This document shows positions 8,803 through 18,356 of a DNA stretch of 25,720 nucleotides, in pieces. Origin of the DNA: a virus. The stretch is from the IMG/VR virus record IMGVR_UViG_3300031823_000023, positions 1-25,720 of that record, one strand, 5' to 3'. Each line of letters starts with the position of its first letter. The first letter of the stretch is position 1. Made by a program: the position numbers and the translations under genes. The notes beneath the pieces were generated by a model. The model ran no database searches and had not been told where the DNA came from. It saw only the letters and a program-made list of their open reading frames with translations.

Positions 8803-9513
8803 ATGCCTAAGGACACTGACGACGTTACCGACGACGTTAATAGTGACGTCACCGATGACGCGACCGATGATGTCGATGCTAGCGACGTTACCGACGACGG
8901 TGCGGACGACGTTACCGACGATGCTACGGACGACAAGAAGGATGGTCAGGGTGGGAAGCCTGGATCTAAGCCTTCGACGCGTCCGACGCCTCCGAAGGAT
9001 GATGACGATCCGAACGCAGGCCTAAAGTCGGCGCTAGCTAAGGAGCGTGCAGCGCGCCGAGCGGCCGACAAGGAACTGAAGGATCTTCGGCTTAGGCATG
9101 CGTCGGCCGAAGAGCGGCAGTTGATAGAGGCGAAGGAACTAGCGGCGACGGAAGCTAGAGCAGCTACGAGGGCTCCACTAGTCAAGGCGCTAGCGGTTGC
9201 TAAGCTTGAAGCTGCAGGTGTCCAGACAGGCACAGCCAAACTAGTTGGACTGCTCGATCTGGACAAGGTCGAGTTGGACGACGACGGCGAGATCCTCGGC
9301 CTGGAAGAGCAGATCGAGGAGCTCAAGACCGATTTTCCAAATCTGTTTGTTGCGTCTGGCGGGAGCGTAAGGCCGCCAAATATCAATGGCGGCTCTGGGA
9401 ACGGGCGTAAGAAGGACAAGGAAGATAGGCAGGAGCCGAAGGGCTTCGCACAGCTCCTTGCAGACCAGGTCACGGGGGCAGCTCCGCCGGGACAGGGAAT
9501 GGTAATGAGGTAA
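8803..9513 (+). CDS. Capsid scaffolding protein with acidic repeat head
   Basis: A 236-residue protein between portal and major capsid. Residues 4-44 are almost purely Asp, Val, Thr and Ala in repeats of DVTDD/DATDD type. A basic, Pro-rich linker follows, then a coiled-coil-like helix (about 70-125, KERAARRAADKELKDLRLRHASAEE), a segment LEAAGVQTGTAKLVGLLDLDKVELDDDG that is common in phage scaffolds, and a basic end. It should guide capsid assembly and then leave. I choose ATG 8803, 9 bases after AAGGAG, over the TTG at 8794 that touches it. No maturation protease is seen nearby. Confidence 0.85.
   Translation: MPKDTDDVTDDVNSDVTDDATDDVDASDVTDDGADDVTDDATDDKKDGQGGKPGSKPSTRPTPPKDDDDPNAGLKSALAKERAARRAADKELKDLRLRHASAEERQLIEAKELAATEARAATRAPLVKALAVAKLEAAGVQTGTAKLVGLLDLDKVELDDDGEILGLEEQIEELKTDFPNLFVASGGSVRPPNINGGSGNGRKKDKEDRQEPKGFAQLLADQVTGAAPPGQGMVMR
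8818..8935 (+). repeat. Degenerate tandem repeats coding DVTDD units
   Basis: Repeats of about 15 bases (GACGTTACCGACGAC and variants with GATGCGACC) fill the 5' end of the scaffold gene and encode the Asp-rich head. They stay in frame throughout, so copy number could change without breaking the gene. Confidence 0.7.
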
Positions 9514-9557: not shown

Positions 9558-10622
9558 GTGGCTCAGTCCACGTTTACCAACTGGATCCCGGTTGAATACG
9601 GGGCTCAAGTGATCCAGAAGGTCACCCAGCACTCCGCTGTGGAGACTTTCGGCCAGGAACTCATGATGACGTCCAACTCGCGGTACGTGTCGCGAGACCA
9701 GGGTGTCCAGGCGGGCCTGGTTGCGAAGGGCTCGACCTATGCGGTCGGTTCTGGCGGTCAGGGCTTCGGCTCCAACGACGGTACTGAGGACGCTGTCCTG
9801 CTGACCGCCGGCAAGTGGGGCACGGAGATCGACATCGCTGAAGAGGACATCATGGACTCTCTGGCGGACATCATCAACAGCAAGTCCAATGCGATTGGCA
9901 CTGCGCTTGCGAAGGTCTACGATAACGTGTCAATCGGGCTGAACGCGGCTCCGGGTGCCACGAACGCGCAGACCACTTCGGTATACTACGGCCTGACGCA
10001 CACCGATGCGAGTACCGGGTACACGGCGCCGACAGGTAGCGGCACTACGCTTGCTGGCGGCAACTATGTCCAGACCGGAACGGGCTCGTTCGGCAAGCCG
10101 ACATATACGAACCTGTCAGTGGCCCTCGGGAACGTTGAAGTCGGTGACTACTTCAATGAGGAGGACATGATCTGCATCGCCCATCCATACTTCAGGCAGG
10201 CGCTGCGAGGGATTGTAGACGGCCAGAATCGGCCGATCTTTCAGGAGTCGTCCGGCGGGTTCCCCGGCGGCGGCCAGGGTGCGACTCCGGATCTGATCTT
10301 TCGGGTCCCCGTGTTCTGGAGCCTCGGTTCGACGGTCACGACTCCGACTCCGACTAGCCAGTTCGTGGCGCCGAACTATGCCACCTCAGGTTCAGCTGTC
10401 GCAGGCACGGCAGGCAACAGGCTCCTGGTCTTCTGCAACCGGCTGTATCTCCTGGCCGGCAAGCGGACCACGAACCCGAACAACCCTGCCGGAACTCCCG
10501 AGTTCCAGATCGTGCCGCCTATGTACAGCGGCACGGACACGACCATCCTCCGCGGCCGCATGAGGCGGGCGTTCTCGATGGGCACGGAGTTCGCGTTCTC
10601 GATCCTCGAGGCTACATGCTGA
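9558..10622 (+). CDS. Major capsid protein (HK97 fold)
   Basis: A 354-residue protein downstream of the scaffold with an HK97-type layout: an N-arm (FTNWIPVEYGAQVIQKV), an E-loop region, the spine-helix region EIDIAEEDIMDSLADIINSKS, a P-domain and A-domain with CIAHPYFRQALRG, and the closing strand EFAFSILEAT. GTG 9558 stands 6 bases after AAGGAGG, the strongest ribosome site in the window, as expected for the most abundant virion protein. Codon choice is more C/G-ended than in its neighbours (fewer CTA, GTA and CTAG), consistent with high expression. A perfect hairpin follows the stop. Confidence 0.93.
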   Translation: MAQSTFTNWIPVEYGAQVIQKVTQHSAVETFGQELMMTSNSRYVSRDQGVQAGLVAKGSTYAVGSGGQGFGSNDGTEDAVLLTAGKWGTEIDIAEEDIMDSLADIINSKSNAIGTALAKVYDNVSIGLNAAPGATNAQTTSVYYGLTHTDASTGYTAPTGSGTTLAGGNYVQTGTGSFGKPTYTNLSVALGNVEVGDYFNEEDMICIAHPYFRQALRGIVDGQNRPIFQESSGGFPGGGQGATPDLIFRVPVFWSLGSTVTTPTPTSQFVAPNYATSGSAVAGTAGNRLLVFCNRLYLLAGKRTTNPNNPAGTPEFQIVPPMYSGTDTTILRGRMRRAFSMGTEFAFSILEATC

Positions 10623-11333: not shown

Positions 11334-11758
11334 CCATCCTCCTTTCGACAACCTTCACAGACTTGCTACTCGGCTATGAGTCGAGCGCACATACTGCTTC
11401 GGTTGCCGACCAGTTCGGCGGCGGCACGCTTGTTGTCTATAGCGGCACGGCGCCGACCGGTCCGAATGAGGCGCTGTCAGGTAACACGGCTCTGGCAACC
11501 TGGACGTTTGCGGCTGCCTCGTCTTGGTCTGCCTCCGCAGGCGGCTCGCAGAACCTTGACATCCCAACACTGACGGTAACGGCTGCAGCGACTGGGACGG
11601 CGACGTTCTTCCGAGTGCTCAACTCTGGCGGCACGGCGCTCATTCAAGGGACGGTAGCTACATCGGGCGGCGACTTCAACCTGTCGTCGACTTCGATCAC
11701 GTCCGGCGATAACGTCACAATCACCGGCACGCCAAGTATCGCTTGGACGGTGACGTAG
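11330..11758 (+). CDS. Beta-rich phage structural-type protein
   Basis: A 142-residue protein of a kind I know from many phages without a firm function: LVVYSGTAPTGPNEALSGNT, a Ser/Ala-rich strand region, ATGTATFFRVLNSGGTALIQ, then GTVATSGGDFNLSSTSI and SGDNVTITGT. It should fold as a beta sandwich and be displayed on or near the head. GTG 11330 sits 5 bases after AAGGAG and overlaps the preceding TGA (GTGA). Confidence 0.72.
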   Translation: MTILLSTTFTDLLLGYESSAHTASVADQFGGGTLVVYSGTAPTGPNEALSGNTALATWTFAAASSWSASAGGSQNLDIPTLTVTAAATGTATFFRVLNSGGTALIQGTVATSGGDFNLSSTSITSGDNVTITGTPSIAWTVT

Positions 11759-12339
11759 TGTCCGGTTACACCATGACGCAGCCGGAGCTGTATTATGCGC
11801 TCCCGGCTGCAATCACGAAGAACACTTATACGTCGCAGGCTCCAATCTCGGCGATCGCATCTTCGTCCGTACCTCGATGCGTAGTCCCAGCACTGTATTT
11901 CAACCAGGTCGGTAAGGCAGCTCATGTTAAGGCCTGGGGGACGATCGCTAATGCCTCAGCCGCGACGTTTATCTTTGCTGCCGGCCTTGACGCCGCCGCG
12001 GGAACGATCGGCGGAACTGGCGGTGCGACGCTATTCACTACGGCGGCCCTGACGCCGACAGCCTCAGTTACCGCACCATGGTTCCTGGATATGGACATTA
12101 CCTGCCAGGCTGTCGGCAACCTGGGCACCACCTTGCAGGTGAACGCGGATCTTACCGTTAACAATGTCGCGTCATCTGGAGCATGGGGTACCGGCTCGCA
12201 GGAGACGATGTGCGCGAACACATTGACAGGCCTTAACAATGAGATTGCGCTGTGGCTGGAGCTGTTCGGTACGTGGTCGGCTTCGTCAGCGAGCAACACG
12301 ACTACGCTACAACAGTTCAAGGTCTACCTGGAGAACTAG
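11758..12339 (+). CDS. Beta-rich head-region protein, unknown
   Basis: A 193-residue Ala/Thr-rich protein with a regular beta pattern (KAAHVKAWGTIANASAATFIFAAGLDA, APWFLDMDITCQAVG, LQVNADLTVNN, NEIALWLELFGTWSASSASNTTTLQQFKVYLEN). It looks like a jelly-roll capsid accessory or fibre-base protein. GTG 11758 overlaps the upstream TAG by one base (TAGTG); an ATG at 11773 is a weaker alternative without a ribosome site. Grouped with the genes on both sides as a head surface cluster. Confidence 0.68.
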   Translation: MSGYTMTQPELYYALPAAITKNTYTSQAPISAIASSSVPRCVVPALYFNQVGKAAHVKAWGTIANASAATFIFAAGLDAAAGTIGGTGGATLFTTAALTPTASVTAPWFLDMDITCQAVGNLGTTLQVNADLTVNNVASSGAWGTGSQETMCANTLTGLNNEIALWLELFGTWSASSASNTTTLQQFKVYLEN

Positions 12340-12363
12340 TAGTGCCTAGAAGGCGGTGACAGC

Positions 12364-14985
12364 GTGGCGACCTATAGCCTTTATTCAGGCAGCGGGCCTG
12401 CGCTCACCTCCTACGGCGGACCCTTTCAGTCTGGTATCGCATTTCAGGTTACCGAAGGCGGTTGTTGGTTTCTCGGTTATCGCTGGTGGGTGCCTTCAGG
12501 CGGAGATACGACGGCGCAGAAGTTCGCGCTATGGTGTATTACAGTCAACTCCGCGACCGGCAACGCGCTGGTATCTGGATCAGTGATCACCTCCGGTGCA
12601 TTGACCGCGAACGCGTGGAACGTCATTACACTGCCGACGCCGCTCCAACTGGCTCCCGGCGCGGCGTATATTGCGTGTACCGGCTGGACGGCAGTCAATG
12701 GGTTCCCCGATACCAATAACGTGTTCGGCTCTGGGGATCCAGACTCGGCCGGCATCACTAATGGGCCACTGTTCGCTTACTCCGACGTTGCCAACGGCGG
12801 ATCAGGTACGGCTATCCCGGTCGGCATCGGCGCGCAAGGACAGTTTTCTGCTAACTCTGGAGCTACCGATCCGTCTATCTATATGCCAATAGGGTCGTCG
12901 AACTCGGCGAACTTTGGCATGGACGTGATAATTTCCGATACTGCGCCGTCCGGCTACTCAGGCTCCTACCGGATGTGGCCCAATTTTGCAGGCGTTAGTC
13001 AGCAGAACAACAATATGGTAGACTTGAATGACGCCTATATCCTAGGCACTGAGTTTACCCTGTCGGCATCATGCACGCTAAACAACATTTGGTTCTACAG
13101 TCCGCCGACCGCGGCACAGCTGCCAACGCAGTGCGCTATCTGGAACGTCGGCACCCAGACTATGGTATCTGGGACACTAAATACTTCGCCGTCATGGTCA
13201 GGTGCTGCTGCCTCGGGATGGGTGTCCTGCGCGTACAGCGGCGTGACACTGCCGGCAGGTGATTATAAAGTCAGTGTTTGGAATGCTTCGGCTTCTGGTA
13301 CTGGTACTGGCTGGAATGCATACACTCCAAGTTATTGGACAACGGGTGCAGGCGCGAGCAATCTAGTCTCTGGGCCGATTACGATGCCCAATGAGACAAA
13401 CGCGACTAGCCCTGGCCAGAGCACTTATCAGACTAGCAGTAGCACGTTTCTGTATCCTAATACATATGCTAGCGGCACGCCCGGTCAGAACTATTGGGTC
13501 GACATTGAGGTAACTCCGCCGTCTGCTGGAAGCGCGCTATACCAACCGCAGCAGCATGGTAGCCGCCTTTATCATAAGCGGCATACACGCTTTCAGCGAA
13601 TGCCTTCGATACCTGGCCTGAATACGGAGCTGGGGCCACTATCGCTAGTATTGATGACACTGCAGACAAGTCTCAGCGGCCATGTCGTGGAGTTCGGCGG
13701 ACTTATAATTCCGCTTCCGACATTGGTTACTAGCTTGAGCGGTACGGCCCAGCATACAGAGAGCGGTTCGCTAGCAATCCCGCTCCCGACACTAACTGTA
13801 AGCCTTAATGGCCACGTTGTGGAATCGGGCGGGCTCGCAATTCCGCTACCGACACTGCATGCGAGCCTCAGCGGAACTGCGCAGCATACGGAGAGCGGCG
13901 CGCTAGCGATCCCGTTGCCGACATTGACTGTAACCTTGGCAGGCAGTGTTATTGGTGGAGAGTCTGGAGCATTCGCGCCGGTTCTACCGAAGCCTGTAGC
14001 GAATCTCAGCGGCACTATAACACATCAAGGCGCGTTTGCAGTTCCCCTACTGACGCTGCTTACAAGTTTGAGCGGCACCGCGCAGCACACGGAGAGTGGA
14101 GCGCTTGCGGTTCCGCTCCCAACATTGACTGCGACGCTAACGGGTAAGGTCGGGCATGCCGGTGCACTAGCGGTGCCGCTAACGACACTGCGTGCGAGCC
14201 TCAGTGGAACTGCGCAACATACGGAAAGCGGCGCGCTAGCGATCCCGTTGCCGACAGCGGCTGCTACGCTGGCTGGCCTTATTGCGCATAAGGGCTCGTT
14301 CGCAATAACGTTGCCGGCGATTCAGACGGCGATCGCAGGTAGCCCGGGCGGGAATGTCACCGGCTCGTTTGTTATTATCTTGCCGCCTGGACAGCGATTT
14401 CAGCTTGAGGCTGGCAGCTTTAATCCAGTCCTACCAACGCTAGCCACTTCGATTACGGGTCGGCGAACGGGTGAAGCCGGCAGCTTCAATTTGGCCTTGC
14501 CGCTATTGTATACTGTGCTTGCCGGAATTGCGCAGCAGTCAATTTCTGGCAATCTAAACTTGGTCTTGCCGATATCCGCCGTTGGCGGACTAGTCGCACG
14601 CGTTGGGCATGAGAACGGTCAGCTAACGATTGCGCTTGCGACTATTCAGGTGTCACTGACTGGCGTGCTAGTGCATGTAGGCGTACTTAATCCAAATTTG
14701 GGCATTGGAATGCAGCTAACGCGCTACGAGATGTTCGGAAGCGAGTCGCGAGCTGAGATTGCAATGCTTATGACAGAGCCGACACTAGACCTAGCGGCGC
14801 GGATAGAGAAGGAGAAGACTCCTTCGTTGGCAGGCTTCTTTAGGGCTAAGCAAGTCCGAACGCAGCGACGCCATCAGTTGCGAGAAGCTCGTAGGCGGGC
14901 AGGGCATGAGAGACCGAGGCGCGCAGGAGAGGAAGAGTTATGGCAAATGCGTCTAACACTTGGGCGATGCCAGCTGATGTGCTGA
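12364..14985 (+). CDS. Large head-region protein: two DUF4082-like domains plus LPTL repeat array
   Basis: An 873-residue protein. Residues 1-190 and about 210-395 are two related beta domains (GIAFQV...LGYRWWVP; GTEFTLSASCTLNNIWFYSP, then LPAGDYKVSVWNA) resembling DUF4082-type modules of secreted surface proteins. Residues 424-785 are about 16 units of 21-23 residues with consensus GALAIPLPTLxxSLSGTAQHTES. The last ~85 residues are helical and very basic. GTG 12364 follows AAGGCGG. It may be a capsid fibre, appendage or host- or mucus-binding adhesin. It stands between head genes and the head-tail adaptor, not among tail fibres. The 3' end overlaps the adaptor gene by 46 bases. Confidence 0.72.
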   Translation: MATYSLYSGSGPALTSYGGPFQSGIAFQVTEGGCWFLGYRWWVPSGGDTTAQKFALWCITVNSATGNALVSGSVITSGALTANAWNVITLPTPLQLAPGAAYIACTGWTAVNGFPDTNNVFGSGDPDSAGITNGPLFAYSDVANGGSGTAIPVGIGAQGQFSANSGATDPSIYMPIGSSNSANFGMDVIISDTAPSGYSGSYRMWPNFAGVSQQNNNMVDLNDAYILGTEFTLSASCTLNNIWFYSPPTAAQLPTQCAIWNVGTQTMVSGTLNTSPSWSGAAASGWVSCAYSGVTLPAGDYKVSVWNASASGTGTGWNAYTPSYWTTGAGASNLVSGPITMPNETNATSPGQSTYQTSSSTFLYPNTYASGTPGQNYWVDIEVTPPSAGSALYQPQQHGSRLYHKRHTRFQRMPSIPGLNTELGPLSLVLMTLQTSLSGHVVEFGGLIIPLPTLVTSLSGTAQHTESGSLAIPLPTLTVSLNGHVVESGGLAIPLPTLHASLSGTAQHTESGALAIPLPTLTVTLAGSVIGGESGAFAPVLPKPVANLSGTITHQGAFAVPLLTLLTSLSGTAQHTESGALAVPLPTLTATLTGKVGHAGALAVPLTTLRASLSGTAQHTESGALAIPLPTAAATLAGLIAHKGSFAITLPAIQTAIAGSPGGNVTGSFVIILPPGQRFQLEAGSFNPVLPTLATSITGRRTGEAGSFNLALPLLYTVLAGIAQQSISGNLNLVLPISAVGGLVARVGHENGQLTIALATIQVSLTGVLVHVGVLNPNLGIGMQLTRYEMFGSESRAEIAMLMTEPTLDLAARIEKEKTPSLAGFFRAKQVRTQRRHQLREARRRAGHERPRRAGEEELWQMRLTLGRCQLMC
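13633..14718 (+). repeat. In-frame array of ~16 units, 63-69 bases each
   Basis: The LPTL repeat array is conserved at DNA level in places: 13861-13923 and 14194-14256 differ at only 3 of 63 bases. Early units alternate between two forms (ending GHVVE or GTAQHTE), giving a higher-order period of about 132 bases. The last units are diverged, as if older. Such repeats can gain or lose units by recombination while keeping the frame. Confidence 0.8.
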
Positions 14986-15458
14986 ATGCTACAGGGCAGA
15001 CGGTAACGCTAGCCCAAGTGCAATATGCAGGCAGCATCATTGATCTGTTTACTGGACGGCCCTATGCATTCAGTTGGACAGATCCGAGCTCTCAGGAGAC
15101 GATCCAGTATAACTGGTTCGAGAATGTGGGCGCGTCGGATTCATATTACTTGAATCTCGCTGTCATATATCAGGTGCTCTGGATGCAGCAGCAGCCGGAC
15201 ATCTTCACGAGACTTGAACTGGACTCGATTCAGACTATGCGTGCGCCGATTAAGCTGAACAATGACAATGCCTTGATGATCGGGCCGCTAGTGCGTAAGG
15301 CGTTGTCACGAGTTTCATGGCTACGCAGCCGTGCCCTCCATGTTCGGTCTCCCTTCGAGGATCTATACGCAGCGAATAGCGTCAACTTCGGCGAGTTCAT
15401 CTTTCCGTGGAGTCCCATCGGCGGCTATGGCGGAGCTCCGAGCGGTCCTGATTACTGA
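14940..15458 (+). CDS. Head-tail adaptor (connector)
   Basis: A 172-residue mostly helical protein. The opening MANASNTWAMPADVLNATGQTV, a SIIDLFTGRPY segment, AVIYQVLWMQQQPDIFTRLELDS, and IGPLVRKALSRVSWLRSR match the layout of head-to-tail adaptors in actinobacteriophages. It would sit under the portal and start the neck. ATG 14940 follows a long purine block (AGGAGAGGAAGAG). Confidence 0.8.
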   Translation: MANASNTWAMPADVLNATGQTVTLAQVQYAGSIIDLFTGRPYAFSWTDPSSQETIQYNWFENVGASDSYYLNLAVIYQVLWMQQQPDIFTRLELDSIQTMRAPIKLNNDNALMIGPLVRKALSRVSWLRSRALHVRSPFEDLYAANSVNFGEFIFPWSPIGGYGGAPSGPDY

Positions 15459-15475
15459 TCGAAAGGAGGATCGAT

Positions 15476-15613
15476 ATGTTCACTCATTGGAATTGGGGAT
15501 GGCACGGCGGCGATGTTTACATGCGCGGCTGGGGCCTAGTAGTCGTACTCGGGGCAGCTGTAGTTCTACTAGGTAGCATGGGATGGTACTCCAGAAAGCA
15601 GCATAGGAGGTAG
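15476..15613 (+). CDS. 45-residue single-pass membrane protein
   Basis: ATG 15476 follows AAAGGAGG by 6 bases and the frame ends with TAG at 15611-15613. The N-terminus is Trp/His/Gly-rich (FTHWNWGWHGGDVYMRGW). A hydrophobic helix follows (GLVVVLGAAVVLLGSMGW, residues about 20-37), then a basic tail (SRKQHRR), which predicts an outside-N, inside-C orientation. It sits exactly between the adaptor and stopper genes, and its last codons form the AGGAGG ribosome site of the stopper. It could be a holin-like or antiholin protein, or a membrane-targeted moron. Confidence 0.7.
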   Translation: MFTHWNWGWHGGDVYMRGWGLVVVLGAAVVLLGSMGWYSRKQHRR

Positions 15614-15614
15614 C

Positions 15615-15989
15615 ATGTATGCCATCGCGAACACCCTAGTTACGATTCTACGAGGAACGACAGTAGACTCGTTTGGGGATGTCATCGATGCTCCGACCGC
15701 GATCTACACGAACATTATCGCGTTTATCAGCTATCCGACAATGAGCCCATTGCGTCCCATCGTGCTAGGAAGCACTGTCGTTGAGCCTGCTGGGCCAGAA
15801 CCGAGTACGACGAGACTGGCAGCTTGTACGCTACCTTCCGGGACTGATATAAGGAACTCGGATCAGTTGCTTGACCAATACACTTCCCTACTATATGAAG
15901 TCTATCAAGTGACGCAGCTAGGCCGTGCAGGCGCGGTACCAGACGTCATTGTGAGCCTGAAGCGCGTTACGACAACTGAACAAGCCTAG
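15615..15989 (+). CDS. Head-tail stopper / head closure protein
   Basis: A 124-residue beta-barrel-type protein. VTILRGTTVDSFGDVIDA near the start, a central strand region, TRLAACTLPSGTDIRNSDQLLDQ, and LYEVYQVTQLG..AVPDVIVSLKRV are the pattern of head-closure (SPP1 gp16-like) proteins found after adaptors. It would plug the neck after packaging. ATG 15615 follows AGGAGG by 4 bases. Confidence 0.75.
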   Translation: MYAIANTLVTILRGTTVDSFGDVIDAPTAIYTNIIAFISYPTMSPLRPIVLGSTVVEPAGPEPSTTRLAACTLPSGTDIRNSDQLLDQYTSLLYEVYQVTQLGRAGAVPDVIVSLKRVTTTEQA

Positions 15990-15998
15990 GAGTGCCAC

Positions 15999-16565
15999 GT
16001 GATTGCTGCGCTTGCGGTTGTTAGTGCGATAGCTGCGATACTAGGGACAGTAGTCATTTGGCTAGGGTACCGTGATAGCCGCAGGAACAATGCACGGAAG
16101 CAGAGCGTCGAAGAGATTAAGGCTATTGTCCATGAAGAGATTAAGGCGTTCGTAGATAAGCAGCAAGAGCAGGGCACCCGGGTGGATGGGGTGATCACGC
16201 GGCAGCAAGAAACAACAGGGGATCTCCATGAGCTGGCGGACAAGATGGGGAGGGTTCTTGACCGCCTAGCAGTCATGGAAACTAAAATCGAGGTCTTCTG
16301 GAGATCTGTAGCTATGGACGCTGCAAAAATCATTCACAGTCCGGACCCGAGACGAGCACATATAGACGAGCTCCTAGATGCCTTCATGGGCGGCTCGCTA
16401 ACAACTGAACAGGCGGCCGAACTCCGTAAGATCCTAGTGTTCCTACGCGATTGGGAGCCGGGCAAGCCTGCTAACTTCCCTGTATACCCAGGGGAGCAGG
16501 TTGCAGCAGCGATTCTGCTGCGTACTATGGACCATGCACTAGCAAGTGGGAGCAAGCATGGATGA
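15999..16565 (+). CDS. Membrane-anchored coiled-coil protein
   Basis: A 188-residue protein with an N-terminal hydrophobic helix (residues 2-23, ending WLG), then a basic YRDSRRNNARK stop-transfer stretch, a long charged coiled-coil-like region (33-105), and a C-terminal helical domain (HIDELLDAFMGGSLTTEQAAELRKIL, 121-146). The positive-inside rule puts the coiled coil in the cytoplasm. GTG 15999 is 6 bases after AGGAG. No family recognised. It opens the cassette that separates the stopper from the neck genes and could be a holin partner, a superinfection-exclusion protein or part of an inserted unit. Confidence 0.75.
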   Translation: MIAALAVVSAIAAILGTVVIWLGYRDSRRNNARKQSVEEIKAIVHEEIKAFVDKQQEQGTRVDGVITRQQETTGDLHELADKMGRVLDRLAVMETKIEVFWRSVAMDAAKIIHSPDPRRAHIDELLDAFMGGSLTTEQAAELRKILVFLRDWEPGKPANFPVYPGEQVAAAILLRTMDHALASGSKHG

Positions 16566-16926
16566 AGTTGCCGACTCAAGTGTAATGAAGGCGGCCGAGG
16601 CTCAGATCGATCGGCTGGTTAGAGCGAATAGGTGGCAGAAGGTTAGCATCATCGTCGGTGCGGTCTTGATCTTGCTGCTCGGCTGGGTGGTCTGGAACCA
16701 GCACCAACAAGCAATCACGTCGTGTCAAGCCGGTAACGACTATAGGGCTTCCCAGACGCAGATCTGGGATGAACTGTTTACGCTATCGTTCGGATACAAG
16801 CCGCCGGACAAGAACTCAGAGGCGTATAAGCTAGACGAGACGTTCCTGGCATATGTGCATAAGACTAATGCTCCGCGGAGCTGCGCGAGCTCTTGGGACG
16901 TCTTGAGCGCGGGCGCTCAAGGCTAG
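16558..16926 (+). CDS. Single-pass membrane protein, unknown
   Basis: A 122-residue protein with a short helical head, a membrane helix at residues 29-46 (VSIIVGAVLILLLGWVVW) and an extra-membrane C-terminal domain of about 75 residues with two cysteines (Cys56 and Cys113) that could form a disulfide outside. ATG 16558, 5 bases after GGGAG, overlaps the previous gene by 8 bases. Basic residues before the helix predict a cytoplasmic N-terminus. It could be a holin-class or envelope protein; nothing in it is diagnostic. Confidence 0.72.
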   Translation: MDEVADSSVMKAAEAQIDRLVRANRWQKVSIIVGAVLILLLGWVVWNQHQQAITSCQAGNDYRASQTQIWDELFTLSFGYKPPDKNSEAYKLDETFLAYVHKTNAPRSCASSWDVLSAGAQG

Positions 16927-16939
16927 AGAGGAAACGGCT

Positions 16940-17056
16940 ATGGAGGCAAAAATCGGATCGATGGTCCTCACTGCGATAGCAGTCGCAGTCGGCGTCGGTG
17001 TCGGCATTCTGTTTGGAGCCTGGTTGATTCAGCAGGCGTACGGAGTGCTCCTGTAG
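16940..17056 (+). CDS. 38-residue Gly/Val-rich membrane protein
   Basis: ATG 16940 follows AGAGGAAAC, and TAG at 17054-17056 overlaps the GTG of the next gene by one base. Almost the whole protein is one hydrophobic helix with small residues (VLTAIAVAVGVGVGILFGAW, residues 9-28). Small-xxx-small faces of this kind favour helix packing, as in small holins and toxin-like membrane peptides. It is the third membrane protein in a row. Confidence 0.65.
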   Translation: MEAKIGSMVLTAIAVAVGVGVGILFGAWLIQQAYGVLL

Positions 17057-17499
17057 TGAGACTATTGGATCGTGTAGCGGCGCATGTTCAAGCGATTACG
17101 CGCCGCTACACTCTGCATTACCCGGCGCATGGGGGTCGCCAAGAAGACCCTTGGCATGCAGACTTTGAAGAGTTCAAGGTTCGCCGCGTAATTAGCGGTA
17201 CGCATTATTGTGACTTTGGTCATACATATCGCGGCGGCGATACTTCAGAATGCGACCTATCGAAGCCGCTAGAAGCGCATCACTCGATCATCGAGTTTGC
17301 GCTCCAGAATGGCGTCGACATTAAGCTCCTGGAGCAATTCTATCCAGGTGTCTCTACCATGGGAGTCGGCAAGTGGATCGACTCTGACCAGAACCTGACG
17401 CTGCTTTGCGTTTGGCATCATCGCGGACATGGAGGAGTCCATATCGCGAGCGCGTCTGACTGGGAAGCCTACCAGTTCGTGAAAGGACTGATCTCGTAA
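17056..17499 (+). CDS. HNH-like protein
   Basis: A 147-residue protein with a His pair in EAHHSIIEFA (75-76), Asn113 in SDQNLTLLC, and CVWHHRGHGGVH (118-129), the order expected of an HNH ββα-metal site. An upstream HYCDFGH (50-56) and Cys66 could hold a structural zinc with Cys118. Similar actinophage genes are annotated as HNH endonucleases. GTG 17056 overlaps the previous TAG. HNH proteins near terminases aid packaging, but this one lies 10 kb downstream of terL, so a homing or accessory role is equally likely. Confidence 0.65.
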   Translation: MRLLDRVAAHVQAITRRYTLHYPAHGGRQEDPWHADFEEFKVRRVISGTHYCDFGHTYRGGDTSECDLSKPLEAHHSIIEFALQNGVDIKLLEQFYPGVSTMGVGKWIDSDQNLTLLCVWHHRGHGGVHIASASDWEAYQFVKGLIS

Positions 17500-18356
17500 T
17501 GTATGACGGTATTACGCCGACCAAGTTCGGGCGCTACAAGATCGCGGAAGAACTAGTTGCAGAGCGTGCGCTCTTTCACTCCAATGAGGAGCTGAAGGAA
17601 GTCAGCTGGGACATCCCGATTCCTGTTCTCGACCAAGAGGACCTGTTCGCGCAGGGCATCAACACAGAGACCATGATCCCCGGGTCGCCGGCGGTCGACG
17701 CTCTCGGATCTTGTACGGCGAACGCGTCTACAGAGCACATCGCGCAACTGTCGGTTGCGGCCGGCAAGAACCTCGAGGATCTGGAGATCGGCTTCGGAGG
17801 CAAGACCTGGCGTATGGCGCCGGCTTCGGCGACGGGCTCGGCGGTCATCAATGAGCAGTGGGCAATCGTATTCTACCACCTTGACACTGATCAGACCAAG
17901 GTATCGTCTCAGGAATGGCCGCCGACTGACTGCGGCTCGACTGGCCAGTACTGCTGCGAGTTCGCGATTGGCGCCGGCCTAGCAAAGGACTACATCGTCC
18001 CTCACAATATCCAAGGAGCGCTCCTAGCGCTTCAGGCGGGAACCGTGATTCAAGGCGCGCCTTGGTTCAACGCTTGGATGCAGCCCGACTCAAACGGCTT
18101 CGTTGACGGCGACGGTTCGGTTGAGGCGCTCGAGGCGGCAATCCAGTCTGGGATCGCCGGAGGCCACGAGACCTGCCAGCGCGCGATCAAGCAGCTCGCT
18201 CAGATTAAGGGCGGCGCGATCGATCTCCAGAATACGGTTATCGAAATCCGGAACTCCTGGAGCCAGCAGTTCGGCCTCGACGGTGACTATCTAATCCACG
18301 CGTCGACGCTCGACCTTCTCGGGTCGCACGTCGACTACAAGCAGCTTGTGCTCTGA
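17499..18356 (+). CDS. Papain-fold (C1-type) cysteine protease
   Basis: A 285-residue protein with the papain catalytic order: Cys72 in ALGSCTANAS (Gln-x-x-x-Cys region altered), His223 in GGHETC, and Asn252 in IEIRNSWSQQFGLDGDYLI, the classic NSW followed by a Gly-rich GxxGY-like strand. DCGSTGQ at 144-150 matches the DxGssg loop of bacterial papain-like enzymes. No signal peptide or membrane anchor is seen, so it acts in the cytoplasm, in the virion, or after lysis. ATG 17499 overlaps the HNH gene by one base. Possible roles are virion protein processing, host protein cleavage or lysis; sequence does not decide. Confidence 0.75.
   Translation: MYDGITPTKFGRYKIAEELVAERALFHSNEELKEVSWDIPIPVLDQEDLFAQGINTETMIPGSPAVDALGSCTANASTEHIAQLSVAAGKNLEDLEIGFGGKTWRMAPASATGSAVINEQWAIVFYHLDTDQTKVSSQEWPPTDCGSTGQYCCEFAIGAGLAKDYIVPHNIQGALLALQAGTVIQGAPWFNAWMQPDSNGFVDGDGSVEALEAAIQSGIAGGHETCQRAIKQLAQIKGGAIDLQNTVIEIRNSWSQQFGLDGDYLIHASTLDLLGSHVDYKQLVL

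Follow-up and report, generated by a model that had tools for sequence, protein, structure and literature searches.

A repeat-built gene in the head cluster of a soil phage probably encodes a virion-surface adhesin fibre

An open reading frame built from short repeats lies among the head genes of a soil phage, raising the question of what its product does and where on the particle it might act. The locus was analysed within its virus record of 25,720 bases, hereafter the window, and the region from the major capsid protein (MCP) gene to the adaptor gene was defined as the slot. The genes that frame this slot were located as follows.

9558-10622, plus strand: MCP, upstream border of the slot (phrog_10; matches annotated Streptomyces phage MCPs)
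11330-11758, plus strand: g7, virion structural protein and proposed cassette partner (phrog_3758, E 1e-25)
11743-12339, plus strand: g8, small protein encoded immediately ahead of the fibre gene (HMM family)
12364-14985, plus strand: repeat-built gene, the probable fibre gene (whole open reading frame including the stop; GTG start; 873 aa)
14940-15458, plus strand: g10, head-to-tail adaptor bounding the slot on its downstream side (E 2e-15 to gp16, annotated as the adaptor of Streptomyces phage KimJongPhill)

Genes were arranged in the order terminase, portal, scaffold, MCP, a weakly Bbp16-like gene, g6, g7, g8, the repeat gene, g10 and g11, with the tail genes through the tape measure following g11. 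The KimJongPhill match of g10 and the MCP-side genes upstream confirmed the position given in the initial annotation, between head genes and the adaptor, and g11, g18, g20, g21 and g22 matched the KimJongPhill stopper, tail terminator, major tail protein and tail assembly chaperones. Within the scaffolding protein gene there was a short array of 12-nt tandem repeats (8818-8934).

Relatives were collected by MCP searches and comprised a clade whose contigs had MCP identities of 59-84%, together with a wider set. The nearest cultured relatives by MCP were Streptomyces and Microbacterium phages, and related MCPs were found in Streptomyces genomes; an actinobacterial host is therefore likely. Capsid proteins of two satellite phages, MiniFlayer and Mulchroom, belong to the same MCP family. 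Between the stopper and tail-terminator genes, an odd location, the window encodes a peptidase-type protein (17499-18353; phrog_16701, E 1e-13) that is 66-78% identical within the clade.

The protein was divided into an N-terminal region, a repeat array and a C-terminal frame, with the following features.

12418-12795, plus strand: first DUF4082-like N-terminal domain (Pfam PF13313, E 2.1e-6, 28.2 bits)
13018-13281, plus strand: second DUF4082-like domain (Pfam PF13313, E 3.8e-4, 20.9 bits)
13633-14358, plus strand: variable part of the LP-unit array, 11 units ahead of the landmark by matrix scan; their number varies in relatives
14359-14982, plus strand: conserved C-terminal frame, the proposed docking part, from the landmark TGSFVIILPPGQR to the end (36/36 pairs)
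14827-14976, plus strand: basic C-terminal helices inside the frame (residues 822-848 and 857-871 by structure model; charge count)

The two DUF4082-like domains reported initially were recovered, both below the curated Pfam gathering cut-off of 28.4 bits for PF13313, the first just below it and the second well below. These domains are similar to DUF4082 without formal membership of the family. Their similarity to one another did not exceed that of shuffled sequences, and internal duplication is not proposed as their origin. The description of a very basic helical end also held, with 17 lysines and arginines against nine acidic residues in the last 70 positions and a modelled helix at residues 822-848. 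In the window, the protein extends about 15 residues beyond the end of its relatives, into the adaptor gene (14940-14985).

The array begins at residue 424 and consists of units of about 22 aa, spaced mostly 21 and 23 aa apart, with the core GxFxIxLPxLxxxLxG. A position-specific matrix built from the family scored 14 units clearly, and about three additional degenerate units were seen by eye around residues 666, 727 and 771, making the earlier count of about 16 a fair one; the literal string LPTL occurs six times in the protein. Two nearly identical tracts were found within the array, exactly as had been claimed.

13860-13922, plus strand: near-identical tract, copy 1 (3/63 mismatches to 14193-14255)
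14193-14255, plus strand: near-identical tract, copy 2 (333 nt downstream of copy 1)

When the two copies were aligned, all three mismatches fell at silent third positions. Elsewhere in the array, median unit-to-unit DNA identity was 0.50, and the same codon was used for the same amino acid at a frequency of 0.39, compared with 0.31 expected. Since the other units are only about half identical and codon identity barely exceeds expectation, a single recent copying or conversion event has acted on an array that is otherwise old. Thus, the proposal of recent duplication or gene conversion holds for one tract of about 75 nt and fails for the array as a whole, which is divergent. The low DNA identity between units also makes assembly collapse an unlikely cause of differences in unit number among genomes.

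A large gene was present in this region in all clade members long enough to show it. Ten proteins, including that of the phage L044 discussed below, shared the C-terminal frame, and their numbers of LP units ranged from about 7 to 19: 14 in the window, 18 in L003, 16 in L005, 10-12 in L008, 8 in L009, 7-8 in L010, 19 in L011, 13 in L012, 16 in L044 and 10 in L126. Unit number is thus variable between phages, as had been predicted, and whole-unit indels were found even in a close pair: in the orthologous arrays of L003 and L005, units correspond one to one except for two indels close to the array end, one of 24 residues and the other of roughly 20. In L009, L010 and L126, a second motif, INPGPTWLxLFKPG, was interleaved among the LP units. 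One pattern match, L123, was attributed to chance.

Pairwise comparison of nine of the ten proteins revealed opposite behaviour at the two ends. From the landmark TGSFVIxLPPGxR to the end, the frame measured 174-208 aa and was homologous in all 36 pairs, whereas the region ahead of the array matched in only 7 of the 36 and formed a patchwork in which, for example, the second domain of L005 resembles the first domain of L012. In L003 and L005, the first 236 residues are 89% identical and are followed by sharp divergence. N-terminal domains are therefore swapped between phages. The dN/dS ratios for this pair were 0.11 for the first domain, 0.22 for the C-terminal frame and 0.11 for the array; such purifying selection indicates that the protein is real and constrained.

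Searches with the protein and the repeat consensus by tblastn yielded no matches in cultured phages, and a sequence search of the PDB with the family profile returned nothing convincing. An AlphaFold2 model of the full protein had a pLDDT of 34, and the helix at 822-848 was the sole part above 70. The model of a five-unit segment (pLDDT 55) placed one long strand in each unit; the confidence of both models is too low for claims about fold. All Foldseek matches in the PDB and BFVD were weaker than E 0.001.

The slot was also inspected in the wider relatives. KimJongPhill gp15, which occupies it, belongs to the PHROG named tail fiber (phrog_16641, E 1.7e-75); the slot protein of L065 has pectin lyase and tail fiber matches, and that of L090 is a polysaccharide deacetylase. 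The window protein itself matched no tail-fibre family, whereas slot proteins of wider relatives did. Other repeat-built proteins were a 913-aa protein with an 18-aa repeat in L019 and a 1,190-aa protein with a 20-aa repeat in L015, the latter encoded downstream of the adaptor gene. The adaptor gene of L009 lies between two different repeat genes (11499-17201). The product of the second, 778 aa long, has no conserved C-terminal frame and follows a 57-aa period with the motif NPGPTWLxLFKPG. An actinobacterial MAG contig with a related MCP, L050, encodes an 833-aa protein (12985-15486) with a different 20-aa repeat and an N-terminal beta domain of similar appearance. These occupants suggest that genes for fibres and for polysaccharide-active proteins recur at this position, between the capsid and adaptor genes.

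The content of the slot bears on two readings in which the protein would not be displayed on the particle. Some wider relatives, such as Lizz, have no large gene in the slot, as would be expected if the gene were a moron whose product is secreted or placed on the host surface during infection and forms no component of the virion. We consider this very unlikely, because the gene lies inside the morphogenesis run in every sufficiently long clade member, overlaps the adaptor gene by 46 nt and shares its repeat with a tail-fibre open reading frame. An internal head protein, which would bind packaged DNA through its basic C-terminus and be ejected with the DNA, would account for the very basic C-terminal helix and for the placement among head genes. 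We consider this reading very unlikely as well: in most members the frame finishes with an acidic stretch, the relatives' slot is occupied by fibre or spike proteins, and exposed adhesins typically show the beta-rich repeats, DUF4082-like domains and rapid N-terminal swapping seen here.

We favour a fibre on the virion surface, for which attachment at the head or neck must be weighed against attachment at the tail. The HMM family of g8 was found in the window and in L008, L009, L010, L012, L015, L044 and L126, and g8 also lies upstream of fibre genes with other repeats. L044 is a 122-kb phage that encodes a head maturation protease; its MCP is only 23% identical to that of the window, and no portal or major tail protein match was detectable. 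Nevertheless, g7 (69-71% identical), g8 and the repeat gene occur together in L044, a few genes after the MCP and about 19 kb ahead of the tape measure gene. The presence of this cassette beside the MCP of a different head favours a transferable unit that remains associated with head genes. At 10579-12904 in L044, a glycosyltransferase and a nucleotide-sugar epimerase gene closely follow the fibre gene, which may point to virion glycosylation.

Other observations point to the tail. In the mycobacteriophages Papyrus, Butterscotch and StAugustine, relatives of g7 immediately follow minor tail genes; those of Papyrus and Butterscotch directly precede lysin A. Three LP units were found in the L002 tail-fibre open reading frame, beside a minor tail protein and near an endolysin. 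A weak similarity links the N-terminal beta domains to minor tail proteins of mycobacteriophages (hhalign probability 59) but is only suggestive, and KimJongPhill gp15, which occupies the slot, is assigned to a tail-fibre family. Two further candidates were rejected: a g8-like domain in the L002 tail-fibre frame, seen as an uncorrected BLAST match, was not confirmed by a clean HMM, and LP-like units in the minor tail proteins Papyrus gp32 and StAugustine gp36 scored within or near the shuffle range. The protein could accordingly be a tail or baseplate fibre that is encoded in the head cluster and acts at the tail as a receptor-binding protein. We judge this rather unlikely, since the gene keeps to the region from MCP to adaptor across the clade and, in the unrelated L044, lies far from the tape measure gene.

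Two properties of head fibres were found at this locus. The gene is near the MCP gene both in the clade, between MCP and adaptor, and in L044; in the window it lies upstream of the adaptor and tape measure genes, outside the tail and baseplate block. A conserved part, which would dock, is joined to a variable part (36/36 versus 7/36 pairs). Because the fibre, g7 and g8 form a cassette in the head region, attachment at the head or neck is likelier than at the tail. Against this preference, the g7 relatives in mycobacteriophages adjoin minor tail genes and the L002 tail-fibre frame contains LP units. Of the capsid fibre proposed in the initial annotation, a repeat-built and probably virion-surface fibre in the head cluster is thus retained, consistent with the fibres and spikes in the slot of relatives; its assignment to the capsid over the neck or tail is not, given the location of the g7 relatives, and the suggested binding to mucus or particles is conjectural.

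Collectively, these data suggest that the gene probably encodes a virion surface adhesin fibre whose C-terminus docks, whose N-terminus binds and whose repeat number sets its length. The frame of about 200 aa, with the basic helix at its end, would dock onto the particle, and the LP-unit array would form a beta-rich stalk. At the other end, the DUF4082-like beta domains would be exposed, putative binding heads that are exchanged between phages. Unit number would shift as whole units are gained or lost; conversion would overwrite single tracts. We further propose, more tentatively, that g7, g8 and the fibre may constitute an adjustable fibre cassette transferred as a whole among phages whose heads are unrelated, and that the LP unit may be a beta stalk absent from solved structures.

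Comparable architectures have been described. In T4 Hoc and SPP1 gp12 the helix-rich end is C-terminal, and that of Hoc is the likely site of capsid binding (PMC5292684). Like the proposed fibre, Hoc is encoded with head functions, exposes its N-terminal beta domains and has a C-terminal part rich in helices, but it has three Ig-like domains and no LP-unit array, and the fibre gave no convincing sequence match to any PDB chain. SPP1 gp12 has the same polarity, a repeat-built N-terminal part followed by a helix-rich C-terminal part, but is a small protein with collagen-like repeats in place of LP units. KimJongPhill gp15 comes from a related phage and lies between MCP and adaptor, but this tail-fibre family member and other fibres of the same slot lack LP repeats, and their shared fibre-type motif is N-terminal, so that their polarity looks reversed. 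Tandem arrays of BACON domains in crAssphage adhesion proteins grow by duplication and horizontal transfer (PMC6949934); they too are arrays of beta domains, but their units are whole Ig-like domains and they lie among tail genes. Carbohydrate-binding modules on the necks and tails of 936 lactococcal phages are swappable, and two, one of them from a neck, bound host cells (PMC6669499). These modules resemble the fibre in being exchangeable binding parts on appendages away from the tail tip, but they involve other genes and domains and no LP array. Head fibres of other phages aid attachment (PMC12796354; PMC7602432).

Most likely, then, the fibre is a new version of a familiar type of virus adhesin, similar to the head adhesins Hoc or SPP1 gp12, and not a new kind of system. 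What is new is an undescribed repeat family in a group of uncultured, probably actinobacterial phages, together with a fibre design that combines a conserved C-terminus with a swapped N-terminus. The phages that carry it would provide a natural series of stalk lengths in which the effect of fibre length on adsorption can be tested.
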